From the NCBI GenBank assembly GCA_944380675.1, contig CALWIH010000011.1, positions 1 to 36,348 on the forward strand: a DNA stretch of 36,348 nt, in the 5' to 3' direction. The translations under genes were made by a program, and so were the position numbers. The notes beneath the pieces were generated by a model. The model saw only the letters and a program-made list of their open reading frames with translations. It was not told the origin of the DNA and did not search any database. How positions within the stretch are numbered: position 1 is the stretch's first letter; each line of letters starts with the position of its first letter. Source of the DNA: an uncultured Clostridia bacterium (GTDB taxonomy: Bacteria; Bacillota; Clostridia; Oscillospirales; Acutalibacteraceae). Shown one piece after another: positions 15,086 through 35,769 of the stretch.

Positions 15086-15114
15086 ATCATAACGCCGGAG
15101 GGGTTGGATGTCAA
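15086..15114 (-). promoter_or_regulatory. Consensus promoter of the HdeD-like/GT8 unit
   Basis: On the minus strand TTGACA (15114-15109), a 17-base spacer and TATGAT (15091-15086) form a near-ideal housekeeping promoter. It shows that the HdeD-like and GT8 genes form a unit separate from the glycosidase operon upstream. It also rules out translation from a TTG within the -35 hexamer. Confidence 0.85.
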
Positions 15115-15237: not shown

Positions 15238-15918
15238 TCACGGAGCCTTGGGGTACTCGTTGCAGAGGAGGCGGTAGGGCGGCTCGTCCTCCTCGATGGT
15301 CGGGAAGCGACCCACAGCCGGGACAAAGTGGTTGTCGGAGACATCGTCGTTGCACATCGAGACCTCGCCGATGAGGACGCTGCCCGTGCCGGGCTCCACG
15401 TCGAAATCGTGGAACTGATGCGTCGGCAGGGTGAGACTCTCACCCGGACGCAGGACAATGCCTGTCCCGGCGGGGACGGTGTACCGGCGTCCGTCGGAAT
15501 AGACAAGCACGTCGGTATCCGCGGGCTCCTCCTTCTCATCGTCGTTGCGGACGTGGATGATGAGCGTGCCGCCGCAGCGGTTGATGATGTCCTCCCACTT
15601 GTACCAGTGGAAGTGCATCGGCGCGTGCTGGCCCTCGCGCAGCATCAGGAGCTTTTCGGCGTACGGCTTCGGATAGCGCTCGTCGCCCGCGACGCCGTTG
15701 CGGAGCGTCACGAGGGCGAAGCCGATCTTCTCCCAGTTGCCCATGCCGAAATCGGTGATGTCCCAGCCGAGCATGGCGTCGCGGATCTCGTCGTACTCAT
15801 GACCCTTTTCCTTCCACTCCTCCGGCGTCCAATGGCAGAACGGCGGCAGGTGGAAGCCGTTTTTCCGAATCAGTTCCTCCATCTCGCGGATGCAGCGGTT
15901 GATTTCCGAACGCTTCAT
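15238..15918 (-). CDS. D-lyxose/D-mannose isomerase (cupin type)
   Basis: This is a 226-residue cupin sugar isomerase of the D-lyxose ketol-isomerase family (EcSI-like). The N-terminus MKRSEINRCIREMEELIRKN and TPEEWKEKGHEYDEIRDAML are hallmarks of this family. The metal ligands are H102 and H104 in MHFHWYKWED, E109, and H170 in THQFHDF. These enzymes interconvert mannose with fructose and lyxose with xylulose. As the last of nine genes, after two alpha-mannosidases and a beta-mannosidase, it most likely turns released mannose into fructose, which can then be phosphorylated, avoiding ManA. It starts at an ATG with GGGGAG upstream, 19 bases after the GH2 gene. No clear terminator was seen in 15115-15237. 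The family is secure; the in vivo substrate is strongly suggested by context. Confidence 0.92.
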   Translation of the reverse strand: MKRSEINRCIREMEELIRKNGFHLPPFCHWTPEEWKEKGHEYDEIRDAMLGWDITDFGMGNWEKIGFALVTLRNGVAGDERYPKPYAEKLLMLREGQHAPMHFHWYKWEDIINRCGGTLIIHVRNDDEKEEPADTDVLVYSDGRRYTVPAGTGIVLRPGESLTLPTHQFHDFDVEPGTGSVLIGEVSMCNDDVSDNHFVPAVGRFPTIEEDEPPYRLLCNEYPKAP

Positions 15919-15937
15919 TGCAAATTTCTCCCCTTTC

Positions 15938-18451
15938 TCAAAGGCCGAAACCGGTCAGGCGCAGCGCGGGCGCGGCGTCGCCGAACGCCGTCACGGTCAC
16001 GCGCTTCTCCTCGCCCGGCAGCAGATAGAAATAGTTCTCGTCGAAGATCAGGAAGCTCCTGTTGTCCGGCTCGCGGGCGTCCTCGAGCTTGACGCCCGCG
16101 GCGACGGACGCTCCCTCGTTTTTGAGGACAGCCGTCCACGCGCCGGGGCGCGCGCCGCTCTCCACGGAGAGGGAAAGACGGGGCTTTTCAAGGTCGAGCA
16201 GCGGGGCGAGCGTCGTCTTCGTGAACAGGTAGCGGTTCTCCGGGAGCGGCGCGCCGTCCGCCTCGCCGGAGAGAATCAGGAAGAACAGCGGCGTGCCGAT
16301 TTTTTCGGCGCTGCACGAGAATTCACCCGCGAGAGCGGCCTTCTCCCCGCCCGCGGCGGCCTCGAACGAAGCCTCGGCGAGCACCGCGCCGCGCGCGTCC
16401 GCCAGACGGGCGGTGATGCGCGCCTGCGCCGCCGGGGCGCTGGTCTGGAACCAGATCTTCGCAGCGAAGGCGTCCTTCCCGGCGATCGTCTGGCTGTCGA
16501 AGGAGGCCGTCGCCGTCGAGAAGCCGTACGCCCTCGCGACGCCGTAGTAAGCGGGCTTCGGCAGGCCGTAGTAGTCAACGCTGCAGGTGCAGGTGTTGTT
16601 CGGATAGGGCTCGTTGAACTGCCACGGGAACGTCCCGCTGGCGTGCAGCGCGCGGCGGCGGTTCGCCTCCACGGCGTATTTGAGGCCCTCGTACTGCATG
16701 AGCTGGCTGGCCGGGACGGCCTCCTCCACGCAGGTCAGGCGATCCTCAAACATTTCCTGCATAAGCGGGAAGTTGTTCCACCACGAACCGCGGTGGAAGT
16801 AGAGGAAATTGTCGCGGCTCGGCGGCCACAGATGGCTCTTGTCCATACCGCGCAGAAGGGTGGCGAGGTTTGTCATGCCCTCGACGCCGAACTCGCTCGA
16901 GAACAGGGACGCGCCGCTGTTGTAGAGCGTGTACTGCTCCGTCAGACCCTGATGCTCCCACGGGCCGTGGACGTCGTGCATCCCGTCGGGGTGCTCGGCG
17001 ATGTCGCGCAGGGTGTTGTTGAAGACCCGGCCCGTCGGGGAGGACTCGAGGAAATACCGGCCCGGGTCAAGCTCCTCGACCGCCCTGCGCAGGACGCGGA
17101 TAACCGGCTCGTCGGGGGAGATCATCGATCCGCCCTCGCTCTGCAGCTCGTTTCCGCCGCCCCAGACCGCGAGGGACGGGTGACGCGTCTTCTCCGGGAT
17201 GATCTGCCGCGCCTCCCTGTCCATCAGTTCGAGGAAGGCAGGCTCCTCGGAGGGCTTGTTCTCAATGCCGGAGCTCGACTGGATAAACTCCTGCCACACG
17301 AAAATGCCGAGCTCGTCGCAAAGGTCATAAAATTCCTCGCGCTCGATCAGGCCGCCGCCCCAGACGCGCAGGCAGTTGCAGTGCGCCTTTTTCACGAGGG
17401 TCAACAGGTACGTCAGGCGATCGCGGTTGAGATCGCCGTAGAGGACGTCGTACGGCACCCAGTTCCAGCCCTTGAGATAGATCGTCCTGTTGTTGACGCG
17501 CACGGTGTACGGGCGGGCGTCGGCGGACGCGCCCTCGTTCGCGATCCATTCGAGGCGGCGCAGGCCGGTGCGCGCCTCGCGGGAGCAGACGCACTCCTCC
17601 CCCTTCCAGAGGCTGAGCTTCACGAGGTAGAGCGGCTGGTCTCCGTACTCCGACGGCCACCACAGTTCCGGCTTGTCGATCGGAAGCACAACGGAGACCT
17701 TACCGGCCTTCGCGGGCTCCGCATGGGAGGCGGCGAGCGTATCGCCCAACCAGGCCTCGGCGCGCAGCTCGAGAGGCTCGTCCGCGTACAGCTTTGTCTC
17801 GGCGAGAACCTCAAGCTCTCCCTTATCGAGCGACGCCGAGACTGTGCTGCGCAGCTGCAGGCCGCGCAGATCGCCCTCGCTCACCGCCTCGAGCCACATG
17901 TCCTTCCAGATGCCGAGATGCACCATGCGCGGGCAGAAGTCCCACCAGTACGTCATGCGGCTCTTGTGCGTCTTAACATACCGCGTCTTGCTCACCTGCG
18001 GCTCCTCGTCCGGCGCGCGCTGGATGACGACGGCCACAAGATTCTCCCCTTCGGGGTCGATCAGGTCGGTCACGTCGCAGGAGAAGGAGGGGAACATCCC
18101 CTCGTGCTCCGCCGCGAGGACGTCGTTGACGTAGACGAGGCAGGCGTAATCGACGCCGCCGAAGACGAGACGCAGCCGCTGCCCGCGCATGGACTCGGGC
18201 AGGCGGAAGGTCTTGCGGTAGACCCAAGTCCGCTGGGAAATCCATTCGAGCTGCAGGCTGTTCGCCTCAAAGAACGGGTCGGGGATCGCGCCGCAGCGCA
18301 GCAGATCGCCCGTCACGCTCGAGGGCACGGAGCCGGGCTTCCACCAGCGCACGTCGCGCGTCTCACGCCGGTGCGCGTTGCGCCAGACCCAGTCCTCGCC
18401 CAGAAATTCCTTCATCGTCCAATCGGTTCCGCTGAGCAGAAATCGTTCCAT
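15938..18451 (-). CDS. GH2 beta-mannosidase
   Basis: This is an 837-residue cytoplasmic exo-beta-mannosidase. An N-terminal sugar-binding jelly roll (about 1-190, WVYRKTFRLPESMRG, then FGGVDYACLVYVNDV) is followed by an immunoglobulin-like domain, the TIM barrel from about 300, and C-terminal beta domains. Within the barrel YLKGWNWVPYD and LRVWGGGLIEREEFYD are typical of beta-mannosidases. The acid/base is E435 in WGGGNELQ and the nucleophile is E520 in SSEFGVEG. In this operon the expected substrate is the Man-beta-1,4-GlcNAc link at the base of the N-glycan core, exposed once the alpha-mannosidases have acted. The ATG at 18451 follows GGAGGAG, 4 bases after the GH38 stop. The identification is strong. 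Confidence 0.94.
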   Translation of the reverse strand: MERFLLSGTDWTMKEFLGEDWVWRNAHRRETRDVRWWKPGSVPSSVTGDLLRCGAIPDPFFEANSLQLEWISQRTWVYRKTFRLPESMRGQRLRLVFGGVDYACLVYVNDVLAAEHEGMFPSFSCDVTDLIDPEGENLVAVVIQRAPDEEPQVSKTRYVKTHKSRMTYWWDFCPRMVHLGIWKDMWLEAVSEGDLRGLQLRSTVSASLDKGELEVLAETKLYADEPLELRAEAWLGDTLAASHAEPAKAGKVSVVLPIDKPELWWPSEYGDQPLYLVKLSLWKGEECVCSREARTGLRRLEWIANEGASADARPYTVRVNNRTIYLKGWNWVPYDVLYGDLNRDRLTYLLTLVKKAHCNCLRVWGGGLIEREEFYDLCDELGIFVWQEFIQSSSGIENKPSEEPAFLELMDREARQIIPEKTRHPSLAVWGGGNELQSEGGSMISPDEPVIRVLRRAVEELDPGRYFLESSPTGRVFNNTLRDIAEHPDGMHDVHGPWEHQGLTEQYTLYNSGASLFSSEFGVEGMTNLATLLRGMDKSHLWPPSRDNFLYFHRGSWWNNFPLMQEMFEDRLTCVEEAVPASQLMQYEGLKYAVEANRRRALHASGTFPWQFNEPYPNNTCTCSVDYYGLPKPAYYGVARAYGFSTATASFDSQTIAGKDAFAAKIWFQTSAPAAQARITARLADARGAVLAEASFEAAAGGEKAALAGEFSCSAEKIGTPLFFLILSGEADGAPLPENRYLFTKTTLAPLLDLEKPRLSLSVESGARPGAWTAVLKNEGASVAAGVKLEDAREPDNRSFLIFDENYFYLLPGEEKRVTVTAFGDAAPALRLTGFGL

Positions 18452-18455
18452 CTTC

Positions 18456-20876
18456 TCACTCCTCCAAAGGTCTTTCCAGCAGATCGCACGGCACGAAGCC
18501 GTCCTGCGTCAGGCGAAGCGCCGCAAGCTCCCACGGGGAAAGCTCGCGGCGGACGGAGAAGCCGCGGGCGGAAAGCTCCGCCCAGCCGCCCTTGCCCTCC
18601 GTCTCAAAGAGACGGAAGACGAGATCGCCGCTGCCGTCGTGCGCGGGCTTGACGGCGGAAACGTACGCGTTCTCCGTGTTCATCTGCACGAGAGAACCCG
18701 TGCGTAAAAAGCGCTTGCCGGTGTGGTTGCTGTCGCCGAGGTATTCGAGCGGCAGGTGGAGGCGGTCCGCCTCCTCAAACAGGCGGCGGGCAGGAATCGC
18801 GGCCGTGTGCGGCAGAAGCCGCAGCTCCCAGAACAGCTGCTCCTGATTCATGAAGCGGCCGTCGATCGTCTCCGGCAGCGGCCCTTCCCCGCCTCTCGCG
18901 TAGACAGCGCTGCGGGCGAGGATCAGCTGATAGCGGTTCCCCTCCTGACGGAAGCCGTACAGACCGTCGTTCAAGACGGCGAGGCCGCGTCCGTTCTCAT
19001 CGGAGAGATCGGCGAAGCGGTGCTGGTAGTATTCGTGGTTCTCATCGTCAAGGTTAACCTTTCGCTCCGCGAGGAAGGCCGTCTCATCGAGGACGCAGGG
19101 CGCGTCACAGGCCGACGGAACGTCGAACGTCACCTGACGGTGCTTCTCAGTGCAGCGGAAGCGGACGCGCAGCTTCAGCACGGGGTTCTCCCGCTCGAGA
19201 ATGTAGTCGATCGCCATCTCGGACTTCTCCCACGCGAGGTTCGCGCGGACGATCGCCCGCATACAGTTCGACTCGATGACGCGCAGGCTCTCCGCGCGGA
19301 ACGCGCCGCGCCGTTCCCCATGAAAAACAGTCTCGCCCCACGCGCCGCGGTCGTCGTAGGAGACGGAGACGCAGCAGGGGCCGCCGAGCAGCTCCGCGCC
19401 GTCCATCACGATCGAGGACGGGCAGCCCGTCTCGCGGTCGAGCGTGACGCGCACGAGGCCGTTGTCGAGGAAGGTCTCCCCCGCCTCCACCGGCGGCAGC
19501 TGCGGCGGGGCCTCCGGCCCCTCGGAGACAATGCGGTAGACGGCATAGCCGTATGCCGGAACGTCCGCCTCAAAGACGAGGCCTTTGCGGCTCTCCGGGG
19601 CGCTGTTGCCGTACAGCGTTTCACAGCAGGGAAGCTCCTGCGCCATCGTGCCCTTGAGGCGCAGCGGCTTCTTCTGGGCGCGCGGGACGTACACGCACGC
19701 GGAGAACACGCCGTGGTACGGAACGCCGGACGGGTTGAACAGGATGAGCGGGAAGCCCTCGCCGCGCGTGTCGAGCTCGTTCGCGATCGCCTGCGCGGCA
19801 TTGCGGATCACCTTGCGGCCCTTTGCCGTCGCGCCGAGCACTTCCTCACACGCGTGGTTCCGCGCGGATTCGATGCTGGTGCCCGCGAGAACGTCGTGGA
19901 ACTGGTTGAACAGCGTCTCCTTCCACGCCTCGGCAAGCTCGCCGAGCGGAGGCGCGTACGTCTCCCGGCCAAGCTCCCCGGCCATCGCGGCCATCGTCTC
20001 CGCCTTCTGGAGCGTCCACTCGGCCCGGCGGTTGTTCTTCTTGATCGTCGAGTCGGAGCTGTAGCAGCCGTAGAAGACGCGGCCCATCTCGTGCGCGCGT
20101 ACGGGAAGCTTCTCCGGCTCGAGCTTCGAGAAGAAGCCCTCGAGCGTCGAGAAGTCAAGGTCGAGATCCTGCCGCTCCTGCCGCATTTCATAAATCACGC
20201 GGATGTTCTCGATGGTCGGCCCGCCGCCGTGGTTGCCGACGCCGTAAAAGACGGCCATGCGGTCGCCGTCGTACCGCTCCATCGCCTCAAGGCTCTCGGC
20301 GAGGTTGCGCTCGAGGGCGGGGCGCGTCCAGGCCATGTACTCGCCGCCGGTACGCTCCGCGAGGACGCTCGCGCCGGATGGCGACTGCCAGACAAAGACG
20401 GGCGGAACGTCGAGATTCGACTTGCCCGGGCGGGACATCAGGTAATAGCGGATGCCGCAGCCCGCGCACACGGCGGGCAGGTTCGCGCCGTGGCCGAAGC
20501 TGTCGACGTTGTAGGCGGCGACAACCTCCTTGCCGAACTCCCGCTCCACAAACTCCTTGCCGTAGAGAAAATGGCGAATGAGACTCTCGCCGGACGGGAT
20601 GTTGCAGTCGGGCTCGACCCACATACCGCCGACAATCTCCCAGCGGCCCTCGGCGACTCTCTGCCGGATGCGTTCAAATGCCTCGGGGCAGTTTTCCTTC
20701 ATCCACTCGAGGTAGGAAATGCTCGAATGCGTAAAAATAAAATCCGGGAACTCGTCCATGCGGTCGAGGGCGGAGAGGAAGGAGGACTTGACCTCCTGCA
20801 TTCCCTCCTCGCGCTCCCAGAGCCACACGGGATCGATGTGCGTGTTTCCAATCATGTGAATCTTCTTCTTTTCCAT
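18456..20876 (-). CDS. GH38 alpha-mannosidase (copy A)
   Basis: This is an 806-residue retaining alpha-mannosidase with no signal peptide. The zinc-site start GNTHIDPVWLW (residues 10-20) and the nucleophile D125 in AYNVDSFGHG, followed by GVGNHGGGPT, define GH38. A helical middle domain and beta domains with LILFNPSGVPYHGVF and later motifs make up the remainder, at the normal length. It should trim alpha-linked mannose from N-glycan-derived mannosides. It lies between a second, diverged GH38 gene (21 bases upstream) and the GH2 beta-mannosidase gene (4 bases downstream). Two copies probably split linkages such as alpha-1,3, alpha-1,6 or alpha-1,2; which does which cannot be read. The ATG is well placed after GGGAGG. 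Confidence 0.95.
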   Translation of the reverse strand: MEKKKIHMIGNTHIDPVWLWEREEGMQEVKSSFLSALDRMDEFPDFIFTHSSISYLEWMKENCPEAFERIRQRVAEGRWEIVGGMWVEPDCNIPSGESLIRHFLYGKEFVEREFGKEVVAAYNVDSFGHGANLPAVCAGCGIRYYLMSRPGKSNLDVPPVFVWQSPSGASVLAERTGGEYMAWTRPALERNLAESLEAMERYDGDRMAVFYGVGNHGGGPTIENIRVIYEMRQERQDLDLDFSTLEGFFSKLEPEKLPVRAHEMGRVFYGCYSSDSTIKKNNRRAEWTLQKAETMAAMAGELGRETYAPPLGELAEAWKETLFNQFHDVLAGTSIESARNHACEEVLGATAKGRKVIRNAAQAIANELDTRGEGFPLILFNPSGVPYHGVFSACVYVPRAQKKPLRLKGTMAQELPCCETLYGNSAPESRKGLVFEADVPAYGYAVYRIVSEGPEAPPQLPPVEAGETFLDNGLVRVTLDRETGCPSSIVMDGAELLGGPCCVSVSYDDRGAWGETVFHGERRGAFRAESLRVIESNCMRAIVRANLAWEKSEMAIDYILERENPVLKLRVRFRCTEKHRQVTFDVPSACDAPCVLDETAFLAERKVNLDDENHEYYQHRFADLSDENGRGLAVLNDGLYGFRQEGNRYQLILARSAVYARGGEGPLPETIDGRFMNQEQLFWELRLLPHTAAIPARRLFEEADRLHLPLEYLGDSNHTGKRFLRTGSLVQMNTENAYVSAVKPAHDGSGDLVFRLFETEGKGGWAELSARGFSVRRELSPWELAALRLTQDGFVPCDLLERPLEE

Positions 20877-20897
20877 GATCCTTTTCCTCCCACGGCG

Positions 20898-23372
20898 TTA
20901 CGCCTTGCCGGATTCCTCCGGGAATTCAAGCAGGTTCGTCTTCTGCCAGCCGGTTTCCGTCCGGCGGAACGTGAGCAGCTCCCACGCCCCGGCGGCGAAG
21001 GAAAGCTCGCCCTCCGGCGTGCGCAGGACGCCGGAGCCGGCACGGCCCGCGATCTCCTGCACGCGGTACACGACGCCGCCCTCCTCGCCGGGCTTGACGG
21101 CGGCGAGAGCAAAATGGCCTCCCTCCACCGACGCGGCGCTGAACGAGGAAACCGCGCCCTTTCTTCCGCCGTGGCGGCAGTCGGCGAGCGCGAACGGGCG
21201 GCGGTCGGCCTGCGCGGCCTCGCGGAAGCGCTCCTCCTGGGAAAGCGGCTCCCCGTGCGGACGCAGCCGGAGGGTAAAGCTGTGCACGCCCTGATCGGCG
21301 TACTCGTAGCCCTCGACCGGATTGTACCAGCCCACGCCGTTGCCCTGTGCGAAGATGGCGCTGCGGGCAAGCGGCAGCTCGAGCGCGCCGTCCTGCAGGA
21401 CGTAGGCATATTTGCCGTCGTTGACAGTCAGCAGACCGCGCCCGCTTTCGTCGGACGCGTCGGCAAAGCGGTGCATACTGTATTCGACGCCGTTCTCCGG
21501 CTCATGGAAGAACGTCCCGTAAGCGCATTCCGCGGCGACGGTCTTCGCCCCGCGCAGCGGCAGGGAGGCGCGAAGCATCTGCCACTCGCCGTCCCAGAGC
21601 AGACGGCTTCTGATCTCGAGGGCGTCCGAACCGGCGCTCAGGACAAAGCGCTGCTCGAGGCGGCTTCCGCCGAGACGGTACACGGCGCGCACGACCTTGC
21701 GGACGCAGCCGGACTCGATCGTCTCGAGGAGCTCCGGGGTCAGGCTTTCGCCGGAATCCTCGTACCGGCGGTCCTGACAATGGCCCCAGGCGTCGCGCTC
21801 GTCCGTCCAGACGGCGTATCGCACGGGCGCGGAGAGAGCGTCGTAGCCGGTGCGCTTGTCGACGAGGGAGCACAGCGCGCCGTCCTCCGTAAAGCGGACG
21901 AGCAGGCGGTCGTTTTCCATCACATGGGGATCATCGTCCGGGGTAAAGCCGTTGTTCACGGCAAGCGGGAACTCCGGCGCGCGGCGGATGTCGCACGCGA
22001 GCGCCGGCTCGCCGACAGCGGTGCGGTACATGGCGAAGCCGTACGCGGGAAGCACGGCGTGGAACACGATGCGGCGGCGGCCTCCGAGATTATAATTGCG
22101 CACCTTGGCGTCCGTGTAGGAGCGCTGGTAGGGGATCTCCTTCCCCGACGCGTCGAGAAGGACGAGCCCGTCCTTGCAGAACCAGTTGAGCTCGACCTCG
22201 ACCTCCCCATCATACGGCTCGCCGGACGGGTTGAACAGAAAGAGCGGGAAGCCCTCACCCTGCGTATCGGCGGCGTTGACAATATTCTGCACCGACAGCA
22301 CCCGCAGCTTCCGGGCGCGCGACGAAACCTCGTCGAGCTGGCGGACGGCCTCGTCTCGCGCGGGGGACGTCGCGGTGCCGCCGAGGGTATCGTGGAACTG
22401 GTTGAACAGCAGCGTTTTCCACAGCTCGCGCAGCTCCGCGCTGCCGGCGTGCGCGCTGCCGGTAAAGGCGCGCTCGAGCACGAGCATCGCCTCGGTGGTC
22501 AGCAGATCACGCTCCGCGCGGCGGTTCTTCCACTTGAGCTGGCCGTCCATCGAATAGCAGCCGGTGTTGACGCCGTTGAAAAAGTCGCGCAGCACCGGAA
22601 ACGCGGCCCGTTCCTCCTCGGTCAGGCCGTCGAAAAACTCGTCGTACCCGCCGAAGGGAAGCCCCGTTTCCGGCAGCTCCCCGCGCAGGCGGCGGACGCT
22701 CTCGAGATTCTTCTTCGTCGGCCCGCCGCCGTGGTTGCCGACGCCGAAGCAGCAGATCATCGCGTGGAGGCCGGCGCGCTCCGCGGCGGCGGAGGCGAGC
22801 TCCACGGCCTCGCGCGTCGACTCATAAAACCAGGTCGTGTACTCACTCGGAAGGCTGACCGCCGCCACACGGCTGCCGTCGGGGCCTTCCCAGAGGAAAG
22901 CGGGCGTGTCGAGGCGCGGCCGCATGAAGACATACTCGTCCATACCGGACTTTTTGAGAATCTGCGGCAGGGAGACGGCATGGCCGAAGCTGTCCACGTT
23001 TGATCCCGTGCGGCACAGCTTTCCGAAGGTTTTGAGGAAGTACCGCTGGCCGTACAGTCCCTGGCGGACGAACGCCTCGCCGCACGGCAGAATGCAGTCC
23101 GGCTCAATGAACCAGCCGCCCGCAAGGCGAAAGCGCCCCTCCTCCACGCGGCGGCGGATGCGGGAGAACAGCTCGGGGCTTGTGCGCTCGAGCCACTCGA
23201 AGAACGCGGAGGACGTCGCGGTGAAGGTCATCTCCGGGTCCTCGTCCATGCGGTCAAGAGCGGAGCCGAACGTCGCCTTGACCTCCTGCATTCCCTCCTC
23301 CCAGTCCCAGAACCAGACCGGGTCGATGTGGGAATTGCCCGTCATATAGAGCGTTACTTTTTTCTGTTCCAC
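20898..23372 (-). CDS. GH38 alpha-mannosidase (copy B)
   Basis: This is an 824-residue GH38 enzyme. GNSHIDPVWFWDWEEGMQEV (residues 12-31) carries the zinc-binding His-Asp, D127 in GSNVDSFGHA is the predicted nucleophile, and CFGVGNHGGGPTKKN follows. It resembles copy A throughout but is clearly diverged, with different residues around the nucleophile (GSNVDSFGHAVSLP here, AYNVDSFGHGANLP in copy A), so the specificities probably differ. The start is GTG at 23372 with GGAGGG 6 bases upstream. It follows the GH20 gene by 12 bases within the operon. No signal peptide was seen, so it acts on imported oligosaccharides. The family is certain, the linkage preference unknown. Confidence 0.95.
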   Translation of the reverse strand: MEQKKVTLYMTGNSHIDPVWFWDWEEGMQEVKATFGSALDRMDEDPEMTFTATSSAFFEWLERTSPELFSRIRRRVEEGRFRLAGGWFIEPDCILPCGEAFVRQGLYGQRYFLKTFGKLCRTGSNVDSFGHAVSLPQILKKSGMDEYVFMRPRLDTPAFLWEGPDGSRVAAVSLPSEYTTWFYESTREAVELASAAAERAGLHAMICCFGVGNHGGGPTKKNLESVRRLRGELPETGLPFGGYDEFFDGLTEEERAAFPVLRDFFNGVNTGCYSMDGQLKWKNRRAERDLLTTEAMLVLERAFTGSAHAGSAELRELWKTLLFNQFHDTLGGTATSPARDEAVRQLDEVSSRARKLRVLSVQNIVNAADTQGEGFPLFLFNPSGEPYDGEVEVELNWFCKDGLVLLDASGKEIPYQRSYTDAKVRNYNLGGRRRIVFHAVLPAYGFAMYRTAVGEPALACDIRRAPEFPLAVNNGFTPDDDPHVMENDRLLVRFTEDGALCSLVDKRTGYDALSAPVRYAVWTDERDAWGHCQDRRYEDSGESLTPELLETIESGCVRKVVRAVYRLGGSRLEQRFVLSAGSDALEIRSRLLWDGEWQMLRASLPLRGAKTVAAECAYGTFFHEPENGVEYSMHRFADASDESGRGLLTVNDGKYAYVLQDGALELPLARSAIFAQGNGVGWYNPVEGYEYADQGVHSFTLRLRPHGEPLSQEERFREAAQADRRPFALADCRHGGRKGAVSSFSAASVEGGHFALAAVKPGEEGGVVYRVQEIAGRAGSGVLRTPEGELSFAAGAWELLTFRRTETGWQKTNLLEFPEESGKA

Positions 23373-23384
23373 AGCTCGCCCTCC

Positions 23385-25259
23385 TCACAGCGTATTGGCG
23401 GTCGCGATTTTGCTCCACTCGTTGTCCCAAAGCGGGATGGTGGAAAAGCCGGGGTTCTTGCGGTTGTCGAGCAGGAGGCGCTCCGGCTCAAGCTCCTCGA
23501 TGACCGGCGCTTCGCCGGAGAGGAAGCCGTCCACGGTCTCCGCCGCGCGGCGCAGACGATCCGATACGCCCGCAAGGCGCAGATCGAGCACCTCAAGGCC
23601 AAACGCCTTGTTCTCCCGCTTCCACTGCGCCCGAACGAGGGTGTGGAAGCGCTCCGTCTTTTCCGCCGCGAGACGGCAGCGGCCGGAGAGCGCGGCGAGC
23701 GCTTCCCTGTCGCGGCTGTCGTACGCCTGCTTGAGGCGGATGCCGAGATCGCACTTGACGGAGAGCACATCGGCGAGCGCGGCGAGCGCCGCGAACAGAT
23801 AAGCGTATTCCCCGCCCTTATCGGCGATGGCCGCGAGCCGTTCACGGCAGGCCGCGAAATGCGGCGGGTAGGTCTCCGGATCGACGTGGCGGTCGAAGAT
23901 GCCGAGCAGCGCGTCCTGATAGAGCAGGTACTTCGCAGGGCCGACGCTCACGCGGCCGGGCGCGGGGTTGTCCGGCGTGAGGTTCAGTGAATCGAGCTCG
24001 AGGAAATCCGCGAGGACGGCGCCCGTGCACGCGAAGAGACGCGGCGCGACCCACTCGTCGTCCGTCCGCCCGGCCCAGCACGCTTCCGCGTACAGGGACA
24101 GCACGGGCAGGACGCACGACTGCGCAGCCTCGCCGCCGTTGTCGCCCCAGCCGGTGACAATCACGTTCTGCACGCCGTTCGCGGCGCAGCTCTCGAGCGC
24201 GAGGCGAGAGGCCGCCATGCTGTGGCGCAGCAGCGGCGCGAAGCCGTTCCACTTCCACGCGCCGCCCGCGAAGGCGACCTTATCGGTCATCCGGTGATGG
24301 CGGCGGATCATGGAGTCGTATTTCGCGCGATCTCTCGTGTAGTAATCCCAGTAGACAAGCTCCACGTCTTGCGGGATGCGGGCGCGGATTTCGGGCGTGA
24401 TTTCCGGGCCATCCCCGTGATAGGAATCGCCGTTGACCATCTTGAAGAACATATCGCTCCACATCATGGCGGTGAAGCCGTATTTCTCGCAGATGGCAAG
24501 CACACGGCGCAGGTGCCGCTCCATGACGTCGAAGCGGTGCTCGTAGCCGTATTTTTTCAGATGCGCGCCGCGCCCGATCATCTCGGCCTCGTCCATGCCG
24601 ATGTTGATGACGCGGCTGCGGAACGTCTCGGCGCAGGAGCGCACCATGGCCTCGATGAGGTCGTACGTCTCGTCGAGATCGCAGCAGAGGATGTCCCCCG
24701 TATCGCGGACATTGCCGAACGAACGCCAGTGGAAGATCCCGTTGAGGTGGGCGAGCGTCTGGATGCAGGGCACGAGCTCCACGCCGAACGAGGCGGCGTA
24801 CGCGTCGAGGGAGCGCAGCTCCTCCTGCGAATACCGGCCGCGCAGATAGCCGAAGAACGGGTACTCCGGGATCTCGTAGGTGTCCTCGGTGTAGAGCATC
24901 AGGCGGTCGTAGCCCATGAGGGAGAGACGGCGGATGAGGCTCTTGACGTAATCCGGGCTGCACACGGCGTTGCGCGAGCAGTCGACCATATAGGTCAGAT
25001 GGTCAAACGACCGCTGCTCCTCCGCGGAGGCGCTTGTCTTCCCCTCGCGCAGCCAGCCCAGAAGATGACCGGCGCCGCGGAACAGGGCGCCGGGCGTCCC
25101 GGCACGGAGCACCGCCTCGTCTCCCGTGCGGGAGACGGAAAGGCCCCCGCCGCCGAGCGAGACAAAGAGGCGCAGATCGGCCTCTCCCGCCTCCCGCAGA
25201 AGCTCCTTCACAGAATCGGTATAGCGTGCGGCCTCGCCGGCCGAGGTGATTTGAAGCAT
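23385..25259 (-). CDS. GH20 beta-N-acetylhexosaminidase
   Basis: This is a 624-residue protein with an N-terminal non-catalytic region (about 1-85), a GH20 TIM barrel (about 90-420, FDHLTYMVDCSRNAVCSPDY, then LMGYDRLMLYTEDTYEI) and an all-helical C-terminal region. The catalytic pair is D223-E224 in INIGMDEAEMIG, the polarising Asp and the acid/base. The layout recalls cytoplasmic hexosaminidases such as pneumococcal GH20C, which remove terminal beta-GlcNAc or GalNAc. In this operon it should remove the GlcNAc antennae that cap the mannose core. I start at the ATG at 25259 with GGGGAGG at 7 bases, not at the in-frame codon six positions earlier. No signal peptide was seen. The assignment is good. 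Confidence 0.9.
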   Translation of the reverse strand: MLQITSAGEAARYTDSVKELLREAGEADLRLFVSLGGGGLSVSRTGDEAVLRAGTPGALFRGAGHLLGWLREGKTSASAEEQRSFDHLTYMVDCSRNAVCSPDYVKSLIRRLSLMGYDRLMLYTEDTYEIPEYPFFGYLRGRYSQEELRSLDAYAASFGVELVPCIQTLAHLNGIFHWRSFGNVRDTGDILCCDLDETYDLIEAMVRSCAETFRSRVINIGMDEAEMIGRGAHLKKYGYEHRFDVMERHLRRVLAICEKYGFTAMMWSDMFFKMVNGDSYHGDGPEITPEIRARIPQDVELVYWDYYTRDRAKYDSMIRRHHRMTDKVAFAGGAWKWNGFAPLLRHSMAASRLALESCAANGVQNVIVTGWGDNGGEAAQSCVLPVLSLYAEACWAGRTDDEWVAPRLFACTGAVLADFLELDSLNLTPDNPAPGRVSVGPAKYLLYQDALLGIFDRHVDPETYPPHFAACRERLAAIADKGGEYAYLFAALAALADVLSVKCDLGIRLKQAYDSRDREALAALSGRCRLAAEKTERFHTLVRAQWKRENKAFGLEVLDLRLAGVSDRLRRAAETVDGFLSGEAPVIEELEPERLLLDNRKNPGFSTIPLWDNEWSKIATANTL

Positions 25260-25280
25260 GACATATCCTCCCCACAAGGT

Positions 25281-27041
25281 TCATTCCGTGACGGTGATCA
25301 GCATTTCCGCCTGCGTGCCGAGGCAATCCTCTCCGCAAAAGACGCGGCAGCCGAGGCGGGCGCGCAGGACGGGCGTCTCCGGCGCGCGGAGCGTGAAGGA
25401 GACCCATGCCCCGCTCTGCGCGGCGGACAGCAGCGCAAAGCCCTCCGGGACGACGGCCCCGGCGGCCAGCCCTTCCCCGTTTTTCCACAGAAGCTCCGCC
25501 TCGACGGTGAATTCCTCCCCCGGCGCGACCGTCTTCTCATAGGGCGTGAAGCGGGCGAGGAAATCGTTGAGCGGGCGGCCGTCCTCCGGCAGCAGCGCGT
25601 GATGGAGGCGGCTTGCCTCCTCCCCCTTCTCCTCCAGGCGGCGGAAGAAGTCCTCGTCGGGCTTCTGCTTCGCCCAGTGGCCGGAGAGAATCCAGTCGGG
25701 GTGAAGCGCGCGCAGAAGCTTCGCGCTCGCGATAAAGTCCTCCGGCTCCCAGAGGTTCTTGTAAACGTAGTTGAGCTGCTCCTCCGCATACTGATCGCCG
25801 GTGAAGACTATCGTCTGCCCGTCGGCCTCAAGCTCCACGGCGACCGCGAAGCGCGTGTGGCCGGGCATCGGGTGCAGGCGGATGCGGTGCTCCTCCCACT
25901 CGATCCACTCGTTCTCGGGAAGGCGCTCGTCGACCGGGATCGGGTCGTACCACAAGCACGGCAGATCGTACGCTTCCGGCTTCTCGAGCAGGTCGGCGAA
26001 GGACTGCACGCAGAGCACCCGCGCGCCGTACGCGCGGCGCAGAAGGTTGAAGCCCGCGACATGGTCGTCATGGTAGTGCGTCGGAATCACGGCGTCAATC
26101 TTTGTCACGCCGAAATCGCGCAGAAGGGCGGGAATCGTATAGAGCCACGGGCGGCGCGAGCTGCGGTCGCTGCCCGCGGCGGGGCCGGCCATGAAATCGT
26201 AGCCGAAATCGATGAACAGCGCCTTGCCGCTCTCCGAGAGGACGACGTAGCTGTTCGCCATGCTCGTGCGGTTGAACAGGACGTGCGGCGTGACGGCCTC
26301 GTACGGCGTATCGCGCAGGAGGAACAGCCGCGGGTTCTGTTCGCGGAGCGTCCGCAGCGCGGCAAGCTGCTCCACCGTGGGAGCAACGGCCGCTTCGGCG
26401 TCCATCGGCTCGCCGTGCGAGGGCAGAAAGCGCCGCACGCCGCGCCGCTCAAGCTCGAGCAGCGAGAGGATGGTATAGGGGATGCCCTCCCCGCCGTTGT
26501 AGCTCCACTGCGTCGCGGCGAGCGACCAGACCTTCCCCGGCGCGAAAATCAGGTCGCCGGTGAAGGCCGTGAGAACGCCGTCAAGCTCGCAGAGCAGCGA
26601 CACGGAGCCGACGGTGTGGCCGGGCGTCGGCAGCACAAAAAAGTCCAGGCCGCCGAGCGTCAGCGTGCCGTACTCCGGCAGAGCATTGGCCGGAACGGAC
26701 TCGAGCAGCGAGAAACGGTCCTGCCGGTTGTTATAGTTGTTGCGAATCTCGCGCCGGTGCCAAAGCTCGGACGCGCGGGCGAAAAGATCCGCTTCCGTCT
26801 CCGGGACGTAAACGGGAATTCCCGCCGCCGCGGCGCGCGGCAGCCCTTCCCCCTGATCGCGGTGGTGATGCGTCATGAGGACGGCCTCGACGGTTTTCAC
26901 GCCGATGGACGCGAGCGCATCCAAAGCCGCGCCCGTGCCGAAATCGATGAGGATGCACGTCTCGCCGCGCTTGACGGCGTACACGCGGCAGGAATCCTCG
27001 AGCACAAAGAGCTCTTCGCTGAGCTTACGAAACTGCGCCAT
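25281..27041 (-). CDS. Tandem metallo-beta-lactamase-fold hydrolase with C-terminal beta domain
   Basis: This 586-residue protein contains two complete MBL-fold units in one chain. Unit 1 (about 1-235) has H58, H60 and D62 in THHHRDQ, H142 in PTPGHTVGS, D163 in TGD and H209 in PSHGEP. The usual last His of HxHxDH is replaced by Q63. Unit 2 (about 255-470) has the full H322-x-H324-x-D326-H327, H395 in PMPGHTRF, D416 in FTGDQ and H455 in LSGHW. The tail (about 500-586) looks like an immunoglobulin-type beta domain. It has no signal peptide. The gene sits 21 bases from GH20 and 24 bases from nagA in a glycan operon, so the substrate is probably sugar-related. No function is known to me for such a double protein. 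Confidence 0.85.
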   Translation of the reverse strand: MAQFRKLSEELFVLEDSCRVYAVKRGETCILIDFGTGAALDALASIGVKTVEAVLMTHHHRDQGEGLPRAAAAGIPVYVPETEADLFARASELWHRREIRNNYNNRQDRFSLLESVPANALPEYGTLTLGGLDFFVLPTPGHTVGSVSLLCELDGVLTAFTGDLIFAPGKVWSLAATQWSYNGGEGIPYTILSLLELERRGVRRFLPSHGEPMDAEAAVAPTVEQLAALRTLREQNPRLFLLRDTPYEAVTPHVLFNRTSMANSYVVLSESGKALFIDFGYDFMAGPAAGSDRSSRRPWLYTIPALLRDFGVTKIDAVIPTHYHDDHVAGFNLLRRAYGARVLCVQSFADLLEKPEAYDLPCLWYDPIPVDERLPENEWIEWEEHRIRLHPMPGHTRFAVAVELEADGQTIVFTGDQYAEEQLNYVYKNLWEPEDFIASAKLLRALHPDWILSGHWAKQKPDEDFFRRLEEKGEEASRLHHALLPEDGRPLNDFLARFTPYEKTVAPGEEFTVEAELLWKNGEGLAAGAVVPEGFALLSAAQSGAWVSFTLRAPETPVLRARLGCRVFCGEDCLGTQAEMLITVTE

Positions 27042-27065
27042 GCGGTACTTCTCCCCCTTTTCCCG

Positions 27066-28190
27066 TTACGCGAAGCGCTTGCCGCCGACGTAGACCTGCT
27101 CGAGCTCCATCTCGGGCGTGACGACGAGCAGATCGGCCAGATTGCCTCTGCGGATGAAGCCGACCTCGTCCTCGAGTCCCATGGCGAGGGCGGGGTTCGA
27201 GCTGGCGCTCGCGATGGCCGTCTCCGGCGCGACGCCGAAGGAAATGACGTTGCGGCACTCCTCGAAGACGTTGCTCACCGAGCAGGCGAGCGTCCCGTCC
27301 GCGAGGGCAGCGCGGTTTCCCTGCACATGAACGTCGAGGCCGCCGAGGCTGTAAACACCGTCGCCGAGACCGGCGGCGCTGAGCGAGTCGGAAACGATGC
27401 AGATCCGCTCGCCGAGGGCGCGGTACGTCAGCCGCACAACGGCGGGATGGATGTGCACGCCGTCGCAGATGAGCTCCGCCCAGACGTTCTTGTCGCTCGC
27501 GACGCCGATGACGCCGGGGTCGCGGTGGTGGAGGCTGTTCATCGCATTGTACAGGTGGGTGATGTGATCCGCGCCCGCTTCGACGGCGCGGCAGGCCGTC
27601 TCATAGTCGGACGAGGTGTGAGCGATGGAGACGCGCTTGTCGCGGCTGAGGCTGCGGATCAGCTCCATGCCGCCCTCGATGCGCGGATCGACGTCCACCA
27701 GACGGATGTACCCGCCCGCGCAGCCGTCGAGCTCGCGGAAGAACGCTTCGTCGGCGTCGAGGAGGTACTGCGGGTCGTGGCAGCCCTTTTTGTCGCGGCC
27801 GAGGAAGGGGCCCTCCATGTTGACGCCCCAGATACGCGCGCCGGGAGCGGGCGTCTCGATCGCCTCGCGGATGCGGCGCATCATCGCGCGGCTGTAGTCC
27901 TTCTCCATCGTCATCGTCGTGGCGAGGAGGGACGTCACGCCGCAGCGGGCGTAGGAATCGCGGATGCGCACAAGCTCCTGCGGCGGAGCGTCGGAGAAGT
28001 CCGCGCCCGCTCTGCCGTGCGTGTGGACGTCAAAAAAGCCGGGCAGCAGCCAGCGGCCCTCGAGGTCGACGGCCTCCTCGCCGGGGGCGGAAATCGAAGG
28101 CGCGACGCGGGCGATGCGGTCGTTCACGACCTGCACCTCAAGCTTCCTGAGCTTTCCCTCAAAAAAGACGGTTCCATTCTTAAAAATCAT
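27066..28190 (-). CDS. nagA: N-acetylglucosamine-6-phosphate deacetylase
   Basis: This is a 374-residue amidohydrolase that converts GlcNAc-6-P to GlcN-6-P and acetate. H56 and H58 lie in DVHTHGRAG, the metal ligand E126 in NMEGPFLG, H191 in AHTSSD, H212 in THLYNAMN, H246 in DGVHIHP and the catalytic D268 in SDSLSAAG. The ATG at 28190 has AAAGGAGG upstream and overlaps the end of the ROK gene by 11 bases, which indicates translational coupling. It should process GlcNAc freed by the GH20 and GH2 steps after phosphorylation. The next enzyme, NagB, is not in the window. The identification is secure. Confidence 0.94.
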   Translation of the reverse strand: MIFKNGTVFFEGKLRKLEVQVVNDRIARVAPSISAPGEEAVDLEGRWLLPGFFDVHTHGRAGADFSDAPPQELVRIRDSYARCGVTSLLATTMTMEKDYSRAMMRRIREAIETPAPGARIWGVNMEGPFLGRDKKGCHDPQYLLDADEAFFRELDGCAGGYIRLVDVDPRIEGGMELIRSLSRDKRVSIAHTSSDYETACRAVEAGADHITHLYNAMNSLHHRDPGVIGVASDKNVWAELICDGVHIHPAVVRLTYRALGERICIVSDSLSAAGLGDGVYSLGGLDVHVQGNRAALADGTLACSVSNVFEECRNVISFGVAPETAIASASSNPALAMGLEDEVGFIRRGNLADLLVVTPEMELEQVYVGGKRFA

Positions 28191-29139
28191 GCTGCTTCCT
28201 CCTTTCGTATTCCGGAAGACACGCCGCTCCCAAAAAGGCGGCGTTGTAGCCAAGCTTTGTGTATAGAATCGGTACGGAGCGGGCGGGCGTTACGACCTCC
28301 TGCGCGATCACTTCCCGGATGCCGGGGAGAAGCACGTCGAGCGACTGGCCGACGCCGCCGCCGATGAAGACGGCCTCGGGGTTGAGCAGGTTCAGCGCGG
28401 CGGAGAGGCCGCGGCCGAGCCAGCGGGCGGCGTCCCCGAGGATGCGCGCGGCTCCCGCGTCGCCGTCGTCGGCGAGCATCCGGCAGCCTCTCGCGTCGAT
28501 GGGAAGCTGCAGCGCCGCGCAGCGCTGCGCCGCCTCCGGCGTCTTCTCAATATATTGGGTAAATTCGCGGGAGATGGCCGTGCCGGAGGCGTGCGCCTCG
28601 AGGCAGCCCTCCTGCCCGCAGGTGCAGGGACGGGGCGCGGCGAATTCCACCTTGACGTGGCCGATCTCCCCCGCGACCTGGGCCGCGCCGTGCACGAGCC
28701 TGCCGTTCGCCATCACGGCCCCGCCGACGCCGGTGCTCACCGTGACCCAGAGAAAGTCCTGCATCCCCTTGGCGTGGCCGAGCGTCCACTCGCCGACGGC
28801 GCAGGCGTTGACGTCGTTCTCGACGAAGACGTTCGTGTTTTTCAGCCTTCTGCGGAAAAAGTCCCGCGCGGGGACGTTCTTCCAGCCGGCGTACGGGGCG
28901 AGGAGAAGGACGCCCCGGCTCTCGTTCACCATGCCGGGGAGGCTCACGCCGATCCCGTCGAGGGAATCCGTCTGCCAGCCGGCGCGTTCACACAGCTTTT
29001 CGAGGCGCAGGCTCGCCTGTTCAAAATGCTCCTGCCAGCTCTCCGTCACGGTGGCAAAGCGCTCATGGATAACGATTCTGCCGCGATCCACGAGGCCGAC
29101 GAGCGTTTTCGTCCCGCCAATGTCAATCGAACCTATCAT
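28180..29139 (-). CDS. ROK-family sugar kinase
   Basis: This is a 319-residue protein with the ROK fold. The phosphate loop SIDIGGTKT (4-12), the predicted base D109 in VENDVNA, the ExGH motif GEIGH (H161) and the zinc motif C172-x-C174...C179 in PCTCGQEGCLE are all intact. There is no N-terminal HTH, so it is an enzyme rather than a NagC-type repressor. In this operon it could phosphorylate GlcNAc, feeding NagA directly downstream, or fructose and mannose, feeding from the isomerase; ROK kinases of each kind exist. The ATG shares one base with the stop of the SIS gene (TGATG) and has GGAGG 5 bases upstream. The family is certain; the sugar is inferred. Confidence 0.92.
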   Translation of the reverse strand: MIGSIDIGGTKTLVGLVDRGRIVIHERFATVTESWQEHFEQASLRLEKLCERAGWQTDSLDGIGVSLPGMVNESRGVLLLAPYAGWKNVPARDFFRRRLKNTNVFVENDVNACAVGEWTLGHAKGMQDFLWVTVSTGVGGAVMANGRLVHGAAQVAGEIGHVKVEFAAPRPCTCGQEGCLEAHASGTAISREFTQYIEKTPEAAQRCAALQLPIDARGCRMLADDGDAGAARILGDAARWLGRGLSAALNLLNPEAVFIGGGVGQSLDVLLPGIREVIAQEVVTPARSVPILYTKLGYNAAFLGAACLPEYERRKQHDF

Positions 29140-29729
29140 CACGCCTCCGAAGCCTGCCCGGCGGCGGCGCGCTCGTTGACGAGGCGCAGATACTGGGACA
29201 GCATATGGTCGACGGCGACGTGCAGATCCTCCACCACGCCGTAATTCTGCGAGGGAATCTCCACGACAAGCTCGGAGCACGTCTCGAGCTTCCCGTGATA
29301 CGCGCCGATCACGGCGGCGCGGAACGCGCCCACGCGCCCGGCGAGCTCGTGCGCCCTCACCAGATCGGGCGAGCTGCCGGAGACGCTCAGGGAGATCACC
29401 ATGTCCTTCGCCGTGAGGAAATTCTCGAGCTGAGAGGAAAACACCTCGTCGTAGGAGACGTCGTTCCCGAGCGCGGTGAGAATCGAGACGTTGTCAACCG
29501 GGCTGACAATCTTCATGCGCGGCTGGCCGGGCACGCTCGCGCCCTTCGCGAAGTCGCAGACCCAGTGTCCCGCCGCGGCGGCGCTTCCGCCGTTGCCGAG
29601 CACATAGACGACGCCTCCCGCACGGCGCACCGTGTCCATCCGCTCAAAAAGCGCCTCAAGCCCATCCTCCGAAAGGGCGTCGAGCGCCGCGTGCAGCTGT
29701 GCCTTGTAGTTTTTGAAAAAGTCCTTCAA
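29139..29729 (-). CDS. SIS-domain phosphosugar isomerase-like protein (GmhA-like)
   Basis: This is a 196-residue single SIS domain protein, the first gene of the glycan operon. VYVLGNGGSAAAAGHWVCDF (42-60) and SVSGSSPDLV (116-124) are the phosphosugar-binding motifs. YGVVEDLHVAVDHML (163-177) places H170 and H175 where GmhA proteins have their C-terminal metal or catalytic His. It resembles sedoheptulose-7-P isomerases, but a heptose role makes no sense here and the N-terminal catalytic part of GmhA is not obvious. It may isomerise or deaminate a hexose phosphate from the glycan. The start is TTG at 29729 with GGGGGAG 6-7 bases upstream; no ATG is available nearby in frame. The fold is secure, the reaction open. 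Confidence 0.85.
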   Translation of the reverse strand: MKDFFKNYKAQLHAALDALSEDGLEALFERMDTVRRAGGVVYVLGNGGSAAAAGHWVCDFAKGASVPGQPRMKIVSPVDNVSILTALGNDVSYDEVFSSQLENFLTAKDMVISLSVSGSSPDLVRAHELAGRVGAFRAAVIGAYHGKLETCSELVVEIPSQNYGVVEDLHVAVDHMLSQYLRLVNERAAAGQASEA

Positions 29730-29763
29730 TTTCCGCTCCCCCTTTTCAATTCTTGCCCATATA

Positions 29764-29805
29764 TTATCATCTATTTTTCAAAGAAACAAGGGAAAAACGG
29801 ATAAT
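29764..29805 (-). promoter_or_regulatory. Promoter of the nine-gene glycan operon
   Basis: On the minus strand TTGTTT, a spacer of about 17 bases and TAATAT/GATAAT lie within the AT-rich block upstream of the SIS gene. It is the only convincing promoter for the genes down to 15238, since internal gaps are at most 24 bases. No obvious operator was seen. Confidence 0.6.
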
Positions 29806-29840
29806 TCATGAACTTTTTTGAGCTAATTTTGACTTTTTCC

Positions 29841-29868
29841 TTGCATTTGCGAACGGACGCGGTATACT
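29841..29868 (+). promoter_or_regulatory. Promoter of the GH32 gene
   Basis: TTGCAT (29841-29846), a 16-base spacer and TATACT (29863-29868) lie 25 bases upstream of the ATG at 29894, back to back with the glycan operon promoter. Confidence 0.7.
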
Positions 29869-29893
29869 GAAGAAAAGGAAGGGAGGAACCTCC

Positions 29894-33556: not shown

Positions 33557-34301
33557 CGTTCAGCCTCCTCCAAAAGGCTTCCTTTTCCTCCTCCGTAAAC
33601 GGGGTGAGGTCGGCGGTGGGGTCGCGGCGGCGCAGCTGCGCGTATTTATGGCGGCCCAGCGTGTGGAAAAACATCAGCTCCACACGCTCAATACAGGGAT
33701 ATTCGCGCTCGAGCGCGGCGATGGCGCGAAAATGCTCCGGCCTGTCCTGATAGCCGGGGACAATGGGGCAGCGCAGCCAGACCCGCTTGCCCTCCCGCCG
33801 GAGCAGCGCGAGCGTATCGAGCACCGGCGAGAGCGGCACGCCGACATCCCGCTCGTGGCGCTCCTCGCCCGTCTGCTTGTAGTCGAGGAGAAACAGATCC
33901 ACATACGGCATCACGGCGTGCACCGCCTCCTCCGAGGCGAAGCCGGACGTGTCGACGCAGACGTGCAGCCCCGCCTCATGGCAGAGGCGGCATGATTCCG
34001 CGAGAAACGCCGCCTGAGCGAGCGGTTCGCCGCCGGAGAAGGTCACGCCGCCGCCAGACAGGCGATAAAACGAGCGGTCGCGCTCCGCAATGGCAAGAAT
34101 CTCCTGCGGCGTCAGCTCCTGACCGTACACAACAGGTTTTCCGTACTTGTCGCGCGCCGATTCGCGGGAAAAACGCTGCGACTCCGGATTGTGGCACCAC
34201 GGGCAGCGCAGCGGGCAGCCCTTCAGGAAAATCGTCGTGCGCACGCCGGGACCGTCGTCCATGGCGGCGCGGGCGACGTCGAAAATCATTCCCTTCAGCA
34301 T
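33513..34301 (-). CDS. Glycyl radical enzyme activating enzyme (radical SAM)
   Basis: This is a 262-residue radical SAM protein. The CX3CX2C cluster motif is C29, C33 and C36 in LKGCPLRCPWCHNPE, and VTFSGGEPL follows as the SAM-binding GGE motif. It installs the glycyl radical on its partner using SAM and a [4Fe-4S] cluster. It is short like PFL-activase and lacks the extra ferredoxin-like Cys insert of many dehydratase activases. I choose the ATG at 34301 (AAAGG 8 bases upstream) over an in-frame GTG two codons earlier. It overlaps the sulfatase gene stop by 7 bases and the glycyl radical enzyme gene start by 44. The assignment is strong. Confidence 0.93.
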   Translation of the reverse strand: MLKGMIFDVARAAMDDGPGVRTTIFLKGCPLRCPWCHNPESQRFSRESARDKYGKPVVYGQELTPQEILAIAERDRSFYRLSGGGVTFSGGEPLAQAAFLAESCRLCHEAGLHVCVDTSGFASEEAVHAVMPYVDLFLLDYKQTGEERHERDVGVPLSPVLDTLALLRREGKRVWLRCPIVPGYQDRPEHFRAIAALEREYPCIERVELMFFHTLGRHKYAQLRRRDPTADLTPFTEEEKEAFWRRLNDDEAQMGIDISERI

Positions 34302-35758: not shown

Positions 35759-35769
35759 AAGGGTCACTC

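Follow-up and report, generated by a model that had tools for sequence, protein, structure and literature searches.

A nine-gene operon of an uncultured Clostridia bacterium that may dismantle N-glycan-core-type oligosaccharides in the cytoplasm, with Asn-type GH38 proteins and a recurrent metallo-beta-lactamase-fold partner

The stretch of DNA analyzed here, referred to as the window, is 36,348 nucleotides long and belongs to an uncultured Clostridia bacterium of the Acutalibacteraceae (assembly GCA_944380675.1, contig CALWIH010000011.1); it makes up the entire contig 11 of a draft genome of 188 contigs, which totals 2.70 Mb and is 92.9% complete. Nine uninterrupted genes run along its minus strand from 29729 down to 15238, in the order SIS, ROK, NagA, tandem metallo-beta-lactamase-fold protein (MBL), GH20C, GH38a, GH38b, GH2 and LyxI. 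A preliminary description of this DNA had read them as an operon for N-glycan catabolism. Gene starts were picked by eye from purine-rich upstream sites, and the spacing computed from those starts gives two overlaps (1 base for SIS/ROK and 11 bases for ROK/NagA) and six remaining gaps of 4–24 bases, confirming the unbroken unit described earlier, with gaps of 24 bases or less and two overlaps. Proteins were classified by their Pfam and NCBIfam profile scores, and the NCBIfam equivalog cut-offs were used for class calls. In the following, G005 is a comparison genome of the same genus, C-numbers are contigs and L-numbers are fetched loci. The features are as follows.

29730..29893, no strand: intergenic region between the open reading frames of the operon and a divergent GH32 gene; presumed promoter region
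29139..29729, minus: SIS-domain sugar-phosphate isomerase-like protein of 196 residues, TTG start, first gene (PF13580, 44 bits)
28180..29139, minus: ROK-family sugar kinase (PF00480, 199.6 bits)
27066..28190, minus: NagA, N-acetylglucosamine-6-phosphate deacetylase (TIGR00221, 269 bits against a cut-off of 225.65)
25281..27041, minus: tandem MBL-fold protein of 586 residues, two metallo-beta-lactamase-superfamily stretches
23385..25259, minus: GH20C-type exo-beta-N-acetylhexosaminidase (PF18088, 183 bits; 5a69, 486 bits)
20898..23372, minus: GH38a, 824 residues, short clade (GH38 N, middle and C domains; GVGNHGGGPT)
18456..20876, minus: GH38b, 806 residues, short clade (GH38 N, middle and C domains; N215 at the acid/base position)
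15938..18451, minus: GH2 beta-mannosidase-like protein (top PDB matches 5n6u and 2je8)
15238..15918, minus: D-lyxose/D-mannose isomerase family protein (LyxI), last gene (PF07385, 319 bits; 3kmh, 214 bits)

The nine genes are presumably co-transcribed as a single unit. Third-position G+C is 0.78–0.89 in every one of them, and the promoter-like sites listed in the presumed promoter region are on the plus strand only. In G005, eight of the genes are found whole and the MBL gene by its two ends (residues 1–198 and 427–586), with 89–98% identity, on two contigs whose break lies inside the MBL gene. The gene order within each of these contigs is that of the window, and the operon has the same GH32 and glycyl radical enzyme neighbors. 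Since G005 keeps the set, the order and the neighbors, the grouping is more than chance. None of the nine proteins carries a hydrophobic N-terminal leader by the best 12-residue mean hydropathy, a simple measure taken without running a signal-peptide program (1.71 at most, vs. 2.79 in one lipoprotein control), which makes the intracellular dismantling proposed earlier likely.

Two branches can be recognized among the enzymes. The N-acetylglucosamine (GlcNAc) branch consists of GH20C and NagA, the latter scoring above its equivalog cut-off. The GH20 protein matches 5a69, a structure named GH20C, over residues 11–630, includes the C-terminal domain typical of GH20C (PF18088) and has the DE motif of this group, read as MDEAE in the translation; a second GH20C gene (44% identity) lies on C67 without other operon genes. 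GH20 homologs were found in 51 of 391 genomes of the class, and none of ten such loci with flanks carries another operon gene at E 1e-8. The mannoside branch consists of the two GH38 proteins and GH2. The closest solved relatives of GH2 are the beta-mannosidases 5n6u and 2je8, and alignment to 2je8 shows that GGNE and SEFG are retained, which we take to hold the acid/base and nucleophile Glu, respectively. A GH2 tree of 27 rows places the window and its genus mate in a cluster with a Lachnospiraceae sequence (support 100/100). Both branches are joined in Lachnospiraceae too. L128 and L129 (Candidatus Eisenbergiella) read GH20-MBL (single)-GH38a-GH38b-MATE-GH2-NagA, and their five shared glycan genes are 56–72% identical to those of the window, while the order in L130, with L177 as its extension, is tandem MBL-GH38a-GH38b-NagA-GH3-MATE-GH2 (MATE was assigned by Pfam in L128 only and by eye in L129 and L130). 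This recurrence points to one substrate with both sugars, and an N-glycan core would be the simplest one.

Judged from these sequence comparisons, the operon would be a single transcription unit for the stepwise cytoplasmic dismantling of an imported N-glycan-core-type oligosaccharide of GlcNAc and mannose, a reading to which we give a probability of roughly 0.58. Import would rely on a remote ABC transporter, with a solute-binding protein (SBP) and two permeases encoded on C4 as the best candidate. GH20C would release GlcNAc, either antennary or from chitobiose, the two short-clade GH38 proteins would take off alpha-linked residues, and GH2 would cut the Man-beta-1,4-GlcNAc core. GlcNAc-6-phosphate would then pass through NagA of the operon and NagB encoded elsewhere, mannose would be converted to fructose by the LyxI-family isomerase and passed to a kinase, and/or be handled by ROK together with the ManA of the genome, and the MBL protein would act as an extra hydrolase, which perhaps strips off a substituent or opens the ring of a cyclic product. 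The substrate, the order of the steps, the roles of the kinase and of MBL, and the transporter are those that we infer. If this reading is true, the operon brings together, in compact form, the enzymes for an N-glycan core, and the MBL partner and the Asn-type GH38 clade described below would be a missing biochemical step and a catalytic variant of a textbook family, respectively. To our knowledge, N-glycan use has been studied much less in gut Clostridia than in Bacteroides, streptococci and bifidobacteria.

Operons for cytoplasmic N-glycan breakdown are already known as a kind, and what is unexpected here is the MBL partner and the Asn-type GH38 proteins described below. By analogy, the operon probably works like such a locus. 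In Streptococcus pneumoniae, the available part of the report gives the locus SP_2141-2146 as GH20C-ROK-GH38-GH125-GH92-GH29, with EndoD and NgtS-P1-P2 unlinked (PMC5215778). Measured against that account, GH20C, ROK and GH38 share one locus in both organisms, and the transporter is encoded elsewhere in the pneumococcus and has its remote candidate on C4 in the genome of the window. As S. pneumoniae has the same arrangement, an unlinked transporter and endo-beta-N-acetylglucosaminidase (ENGase) are less strange, and the remote transporter suggested in the preliminary description is plausible. In contrast, two short-clade GH38 proteins, GH2, NagA, MBL, SIS and LyxI are features of the window. 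The operon does not belong to the pneumococcal type as that account describes it, the GH125 and GH92 partners being absent from the operon and no GH85 match being found in the genome, which is 92.9% complete; GH125, GH92 and GH29 match none of the nine proteins, the rest of the genome not having been searched for them.

The GH38-GH5_18-GH20 locus of C. acnes, whose products lack signal peptides, is proposed to reduce the Man3GlcNAc2 core to monosaccharides in the cytoplasm, and the GH20 that lies beside GH38 and the beta-mannosidase is assigned, as a proposal, the cleavage of the chitobiose core, according to the accessible text (PMC6160142). It resembles the window in that alpha-mannosidase, beta-mannosidase and hexosaminidase are together and cytoplasmic; however, its beta-mannosidase is of GH5_18 and not GH2, its ABC transporter is linked, and MBL and NagA, both window features, are unmentioned for it in that text. 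The GH20 of the window may likewise act on chitobiose rather than on antennae. The removal of antennae claimed earlier is thus not required, and although the GlcNAc and mannoside branches both stand, a complex or hybrid N-glycan is not established as the substrate. The high-mannose N-glycan operon of Bifidobacterium longum, as summarized in the part of a review that was available (PMC10154615), has three GH38 genes and GH125, and on that basis shares with the window the presence of multiple intracellular GH38s in one operon.

Of the five GH38 genes found in the genome, two belong to the operon, C4 has another two and C65 has one. The C4 locus (L006/L007) is likewise of mannoside type, is larger than the operon and includes an ABC transporter of its own. 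It starts with an SBP, two permeases, a 221-residue protein with weak racemase matches, an FGGY kinase, a class II aldolase and a short GH38, and continues with a 435-residue protein, ROK, a long GH38, GH2 and matches to Raffinose_syn, Aldolase_II, Melibiase and Alpha-amylase; the 435-residue protein was judged by eye, no family search being made, to be a four-carbon acid-sugar kinase. For all 11 transporter proteins from the relatives' MBL-GH38-GH2 loci L134, L139, L169 and L170, the highest-ranking match among the regions compared from the genome of the window is the C4 transporter; these regions cover 11 of the 12 SBP matches (all except that on C29). The nearest solved relative of the C4 SBP is 4r9f, named MBP1, presumably a manno-oligosaccharide binder. 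On these matches, the C4 ABC transporter is the best candidate for import. As described earlier, an ENGase is lacking from the operon; the only GH18 match in the genome is a protein with N-terminal LysM-like repeats.

Both GH38 proteins of the window are short, and their best solved matches span about the first 350 residues. The solved bacterial long GH38s 7ufr–7ufu, which we take to be B. longum enzymes, align with them only from about residue 290, and where 7ufs has GDGGGG, the window proteins have GNHGGG. In S. pombe Ams1, D402 is the nucleophile and D493 the general acid/base (PMC7609781), and the Zn site and nucleophile of SpGH38 are H13, D15, D125 and H351 (PMC2815779), as given in the available portions of the two reports. 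In the alignment to Ams1 (6lz1), D402 corresponds to D125 of GH38b, and D493, within GIGDGGGGPT, falls without a gap on N215 within GVGNHGGGPT. The loci contain 80 distinct GH38 reading frames, 76 short and 4 long, a sample that was collected using window proteins and is biased toward the short clade. GVGNHGGGPT is present in 75 of the 76 short proteins; in the exception, from L168, a frameshift follows directly after GNH. GDGGGG is present in three of the four long ones, including those of C4 and C65, and the fourth has no motif match. Among the short-clade rows, H13, D15 and D125 are found in 67/67, H327 and D328 in 66/67, these residues being equated with those of SpGH38 by motif, with the alignment made to Ams1; His216, next to Asn215, is invariant (67/67). 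The Zn ligands and nucleophile are likewise kept in the window GH38s. Because the motif and these residues are maintained across the short clade sampled, the change to Asn at the acid/base position seems to be a conserved one and not a sign of decay, and His216 may act as the acid, or the substrate may need none. With the canonical Asp missing in both proteins, activity cannot be assumed; for the Asn-type short clade, alpha-mannosidase is no more than a family name, and the removal of alpha-mannose by GH38, previously taken as known, is weakened.

The tandem MBL protein was listed in the operon by the preliminary description and given no role. It comprises two metallo-hydrolase halves, with HHHRDQ in the first and HYHDDH in the second, and a C-terminal beta region. 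A resistance metallo-beta-lactamase was considered and rejected, the class B cut-off NF012229 (100 bits) being reached neither by the tandem form (70) nor by two single forms (78 and 74); by these scores, the MBL proteins have merely the fold in common with metallo-beta-lactamases. A GH2-seeded scan of named species genomes yielded 46 loci; the genus mate accounts for one, and the counts use the other 45, at E 1e-20; contig ends interrupt many of these loci, so that the counts are lower bounds. GH38 is near GH2 in 39 of the 45 loci, an MBL-fold gene, tandem or single, in 33 (tandem in 12), ROK in 20, a C4-like ABC transporter gene in 17, the 435-residue protein and FGGY in 10 each, SIS in 1 and LyxI in 0. 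The two MBL forms coexist in 1 of 26 genomes. Of 147 relatives searched at E 1e-20, two have the tandem form (the genome of the window and G005), and of 398 genomes searched in the phylum at E 1e-15, one has it (the genome of the window itself). By this co-occurrence, MBL is a recurrent partner of the GH2/GH38 module, and several bacterial lineages repeat the combination of MBL with the Asn-type GH38, both being uncharacterized groups. Tentatively, it is possible that MBL, Asn-type short GH38 and GH2 form an uncharacterized modified-mannoside module of Bacillota, Chloroflexota and Actinomycetota, and that the operon is its gut version, with GH20C, NagA and LyxI acquired in addition. MBL would then carry out a recurrent step (removal of a substituent or opening of a product), the GH38s would use a non-canonical mechanism, and the acquired enzymes would deal with an N-glycan core that bears GlcNAc and is perhaps decorated.

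Several findings weigh against the N-glycan core as the substrate. Near the GH2/GH38 module, NagA (5/45) and GH20 (3/45) are rarely present. In some relatives, the module has FGGY kinases, the 435-residue kinase-like protein and aldolases as neighbors (the aldolases assigned by Pfam in L134), and the 22-kb L134 locus has no NagA or GH20 match. As most loci lack GH20 and NagA and kinases and aldolases of sugar-acid type occur in some of them, the ancestral substrate of the module may have been another mannoside than an N-glycan. Moreover, the canonical acid/base Asp is absent from both GH38s, no GH85 match for an ENGase was found in the genome at its 92.9% completeness, no MBL match lies within the 34 kb examined around the second GH38/GH2 locus, that of C4, and SpGH20C has broad activity on GlcNAc and N-acetylgalactosamine, according to the part of the review available (PMC10154615). 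In a rival reading that we consider unlikely, the substrate is a different or modified mannoside, the GH38s, lacking the usual general acid, cleave a sugar with a good or assisted leaving group (e.g., phosphodiester- or ester-linked mannose) and MBL handles the substituent. It would suit this rival that all of the short clade sampled has Asn while the Zn ligands and the nucleophile persist, and that an MBL neighbor is frequent and comes in alternative forms, tandem or single. However, GH20C and NagA indicate GlcNAc, the invariant His beside Asn could serve as acid, the C4 locus lacks a nearby MBL, and nothing direct speaks for any substituent.

Assignment of SIS to GmhA was rejected (74 bits for the equivalog vs. 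a cut-off of 209), and by motif comparison its subtype is CDFxKG. In the ROK protein, no domain besides ROK was detected, and it falls below the GlcNAc kinase equivalog NF009835 (94 vs. 380 bits) and all other kinase equivalogs listed. In L134, relatives of ROK (45% identity), SIS (44%) and tandem MBL (51%) are found near GH38 and GH2, with ROK and SIS adjacent in reversed order. As L134 pairs them with MBL, GH38 and GH2 in a locus without GH20 or NagA, this one case suggests that ROK and SIS belong to the mannoside branch, and a role in GlcNAc processing is not required of them. L134 also holds two SIS subtypes in one cluster (4297–4899 and 15338–15973), CDFxKG and GELMKG, of which the first alone resembles the window SIS.

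LyxI is matched by PF07385 over its full length (residues 1–222), and with NCBI lyxose/mannose isomerase equivalog NF051472 it scores 262 bits, short of the cut-off of 350. The assignments of the eight other genes stand as first named, but the mannose isomerase is to be called a member of the D-lyxose isomerase family. In the B. longum operon, an isomerase reportedly converts mannose. A second lyxose-isomerase gene, 52% identical, is on C52 with an ABC transporter and GH116. The stated lack of NagB and ManA holds for the operon but not for the genome, which encodes NagB on C4 (TIGR00502, 259.3 vs. 236.9 bits) and ManA on C54 (TIGR00218, 159.9 vs. 116.2 bits), and a route through fructose rather than mannose-6-phosphate is thus not forced. 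SIS folds include aldose-ketose isomerases, and SIS could substitute for NagB or ManA and render the operon self-sufficient to fructose-6-phosphate, which is compatible with an N-glycan core as substrate and which we regard as unlikely. Its place as first gene beside ROK, and the same subtype beside ROK and two genes from the tandem MBL in L134, would fit; against it, NagB and ManA are present elsewhere in the genome, and among the 12 of 64 loci where SIS adjoins ROK and GH38, 11 carry another subtype than the window.

It is improbable that, instead of N-glycans, the operon serves to salvage a generic mixture of beta-hexosaminides and mannosides, such as mannan, fragments of bacterial or fungal walls and the glycans of glycolipids, since GlcNAc and mannoside genes are joined in the genus of the window and in the three Lachnospiraceae loci, even though Paenibacillus, Cohnella and Chloroflexota relatives have no GH20 or NagA match in most loci, the C4 SBP is closest to the protein named MBP1, and GH38s are also predicted in xanthan loci, in the portion of the source available (PMC12827396).

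Downstream of the operon, a promoter-like TTGACA-17-TATGAT at 15114–15086 may serve the next gene. On the other side, the divergent GH32 gene at 29894–31303 (plus strand), which adjoins the operon in G005 as well, encodes a sucrose-6-phosphate hydrolase-like protein that scores below the cut-off and may likewise supply fructose. The region 31352–36348, on the upstream side of the operon, encodes a glycyl radical enzyme of 734 residues, a radical-SAM activase and a sulfatase, and the contig end there holds a second SGSH_C fragment. The glycyl radical enzyme scores under the cut-offs of the NCBIfam models listed; in L133 (Candidatus Caccomorpha), an enzyme 47% identical to it lies immediately after GH2. 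On C52 (L068, 8789–10900), a 703-residue protein without a Pfam match lies between the ABC permeases and the lyxose isomerase and GH116. In the Eisenbergiella-type relatives (L128, 7.6–9.0 and 16.6–20.2 kb; L129; L130, 8.6–13.6 kb), MATE is directly ahead of GH2 and URO-D-type genes come after it; L128 has a RACo-like activator, and in L130 the URO-D reading frame overlaps the end of that of GH2.

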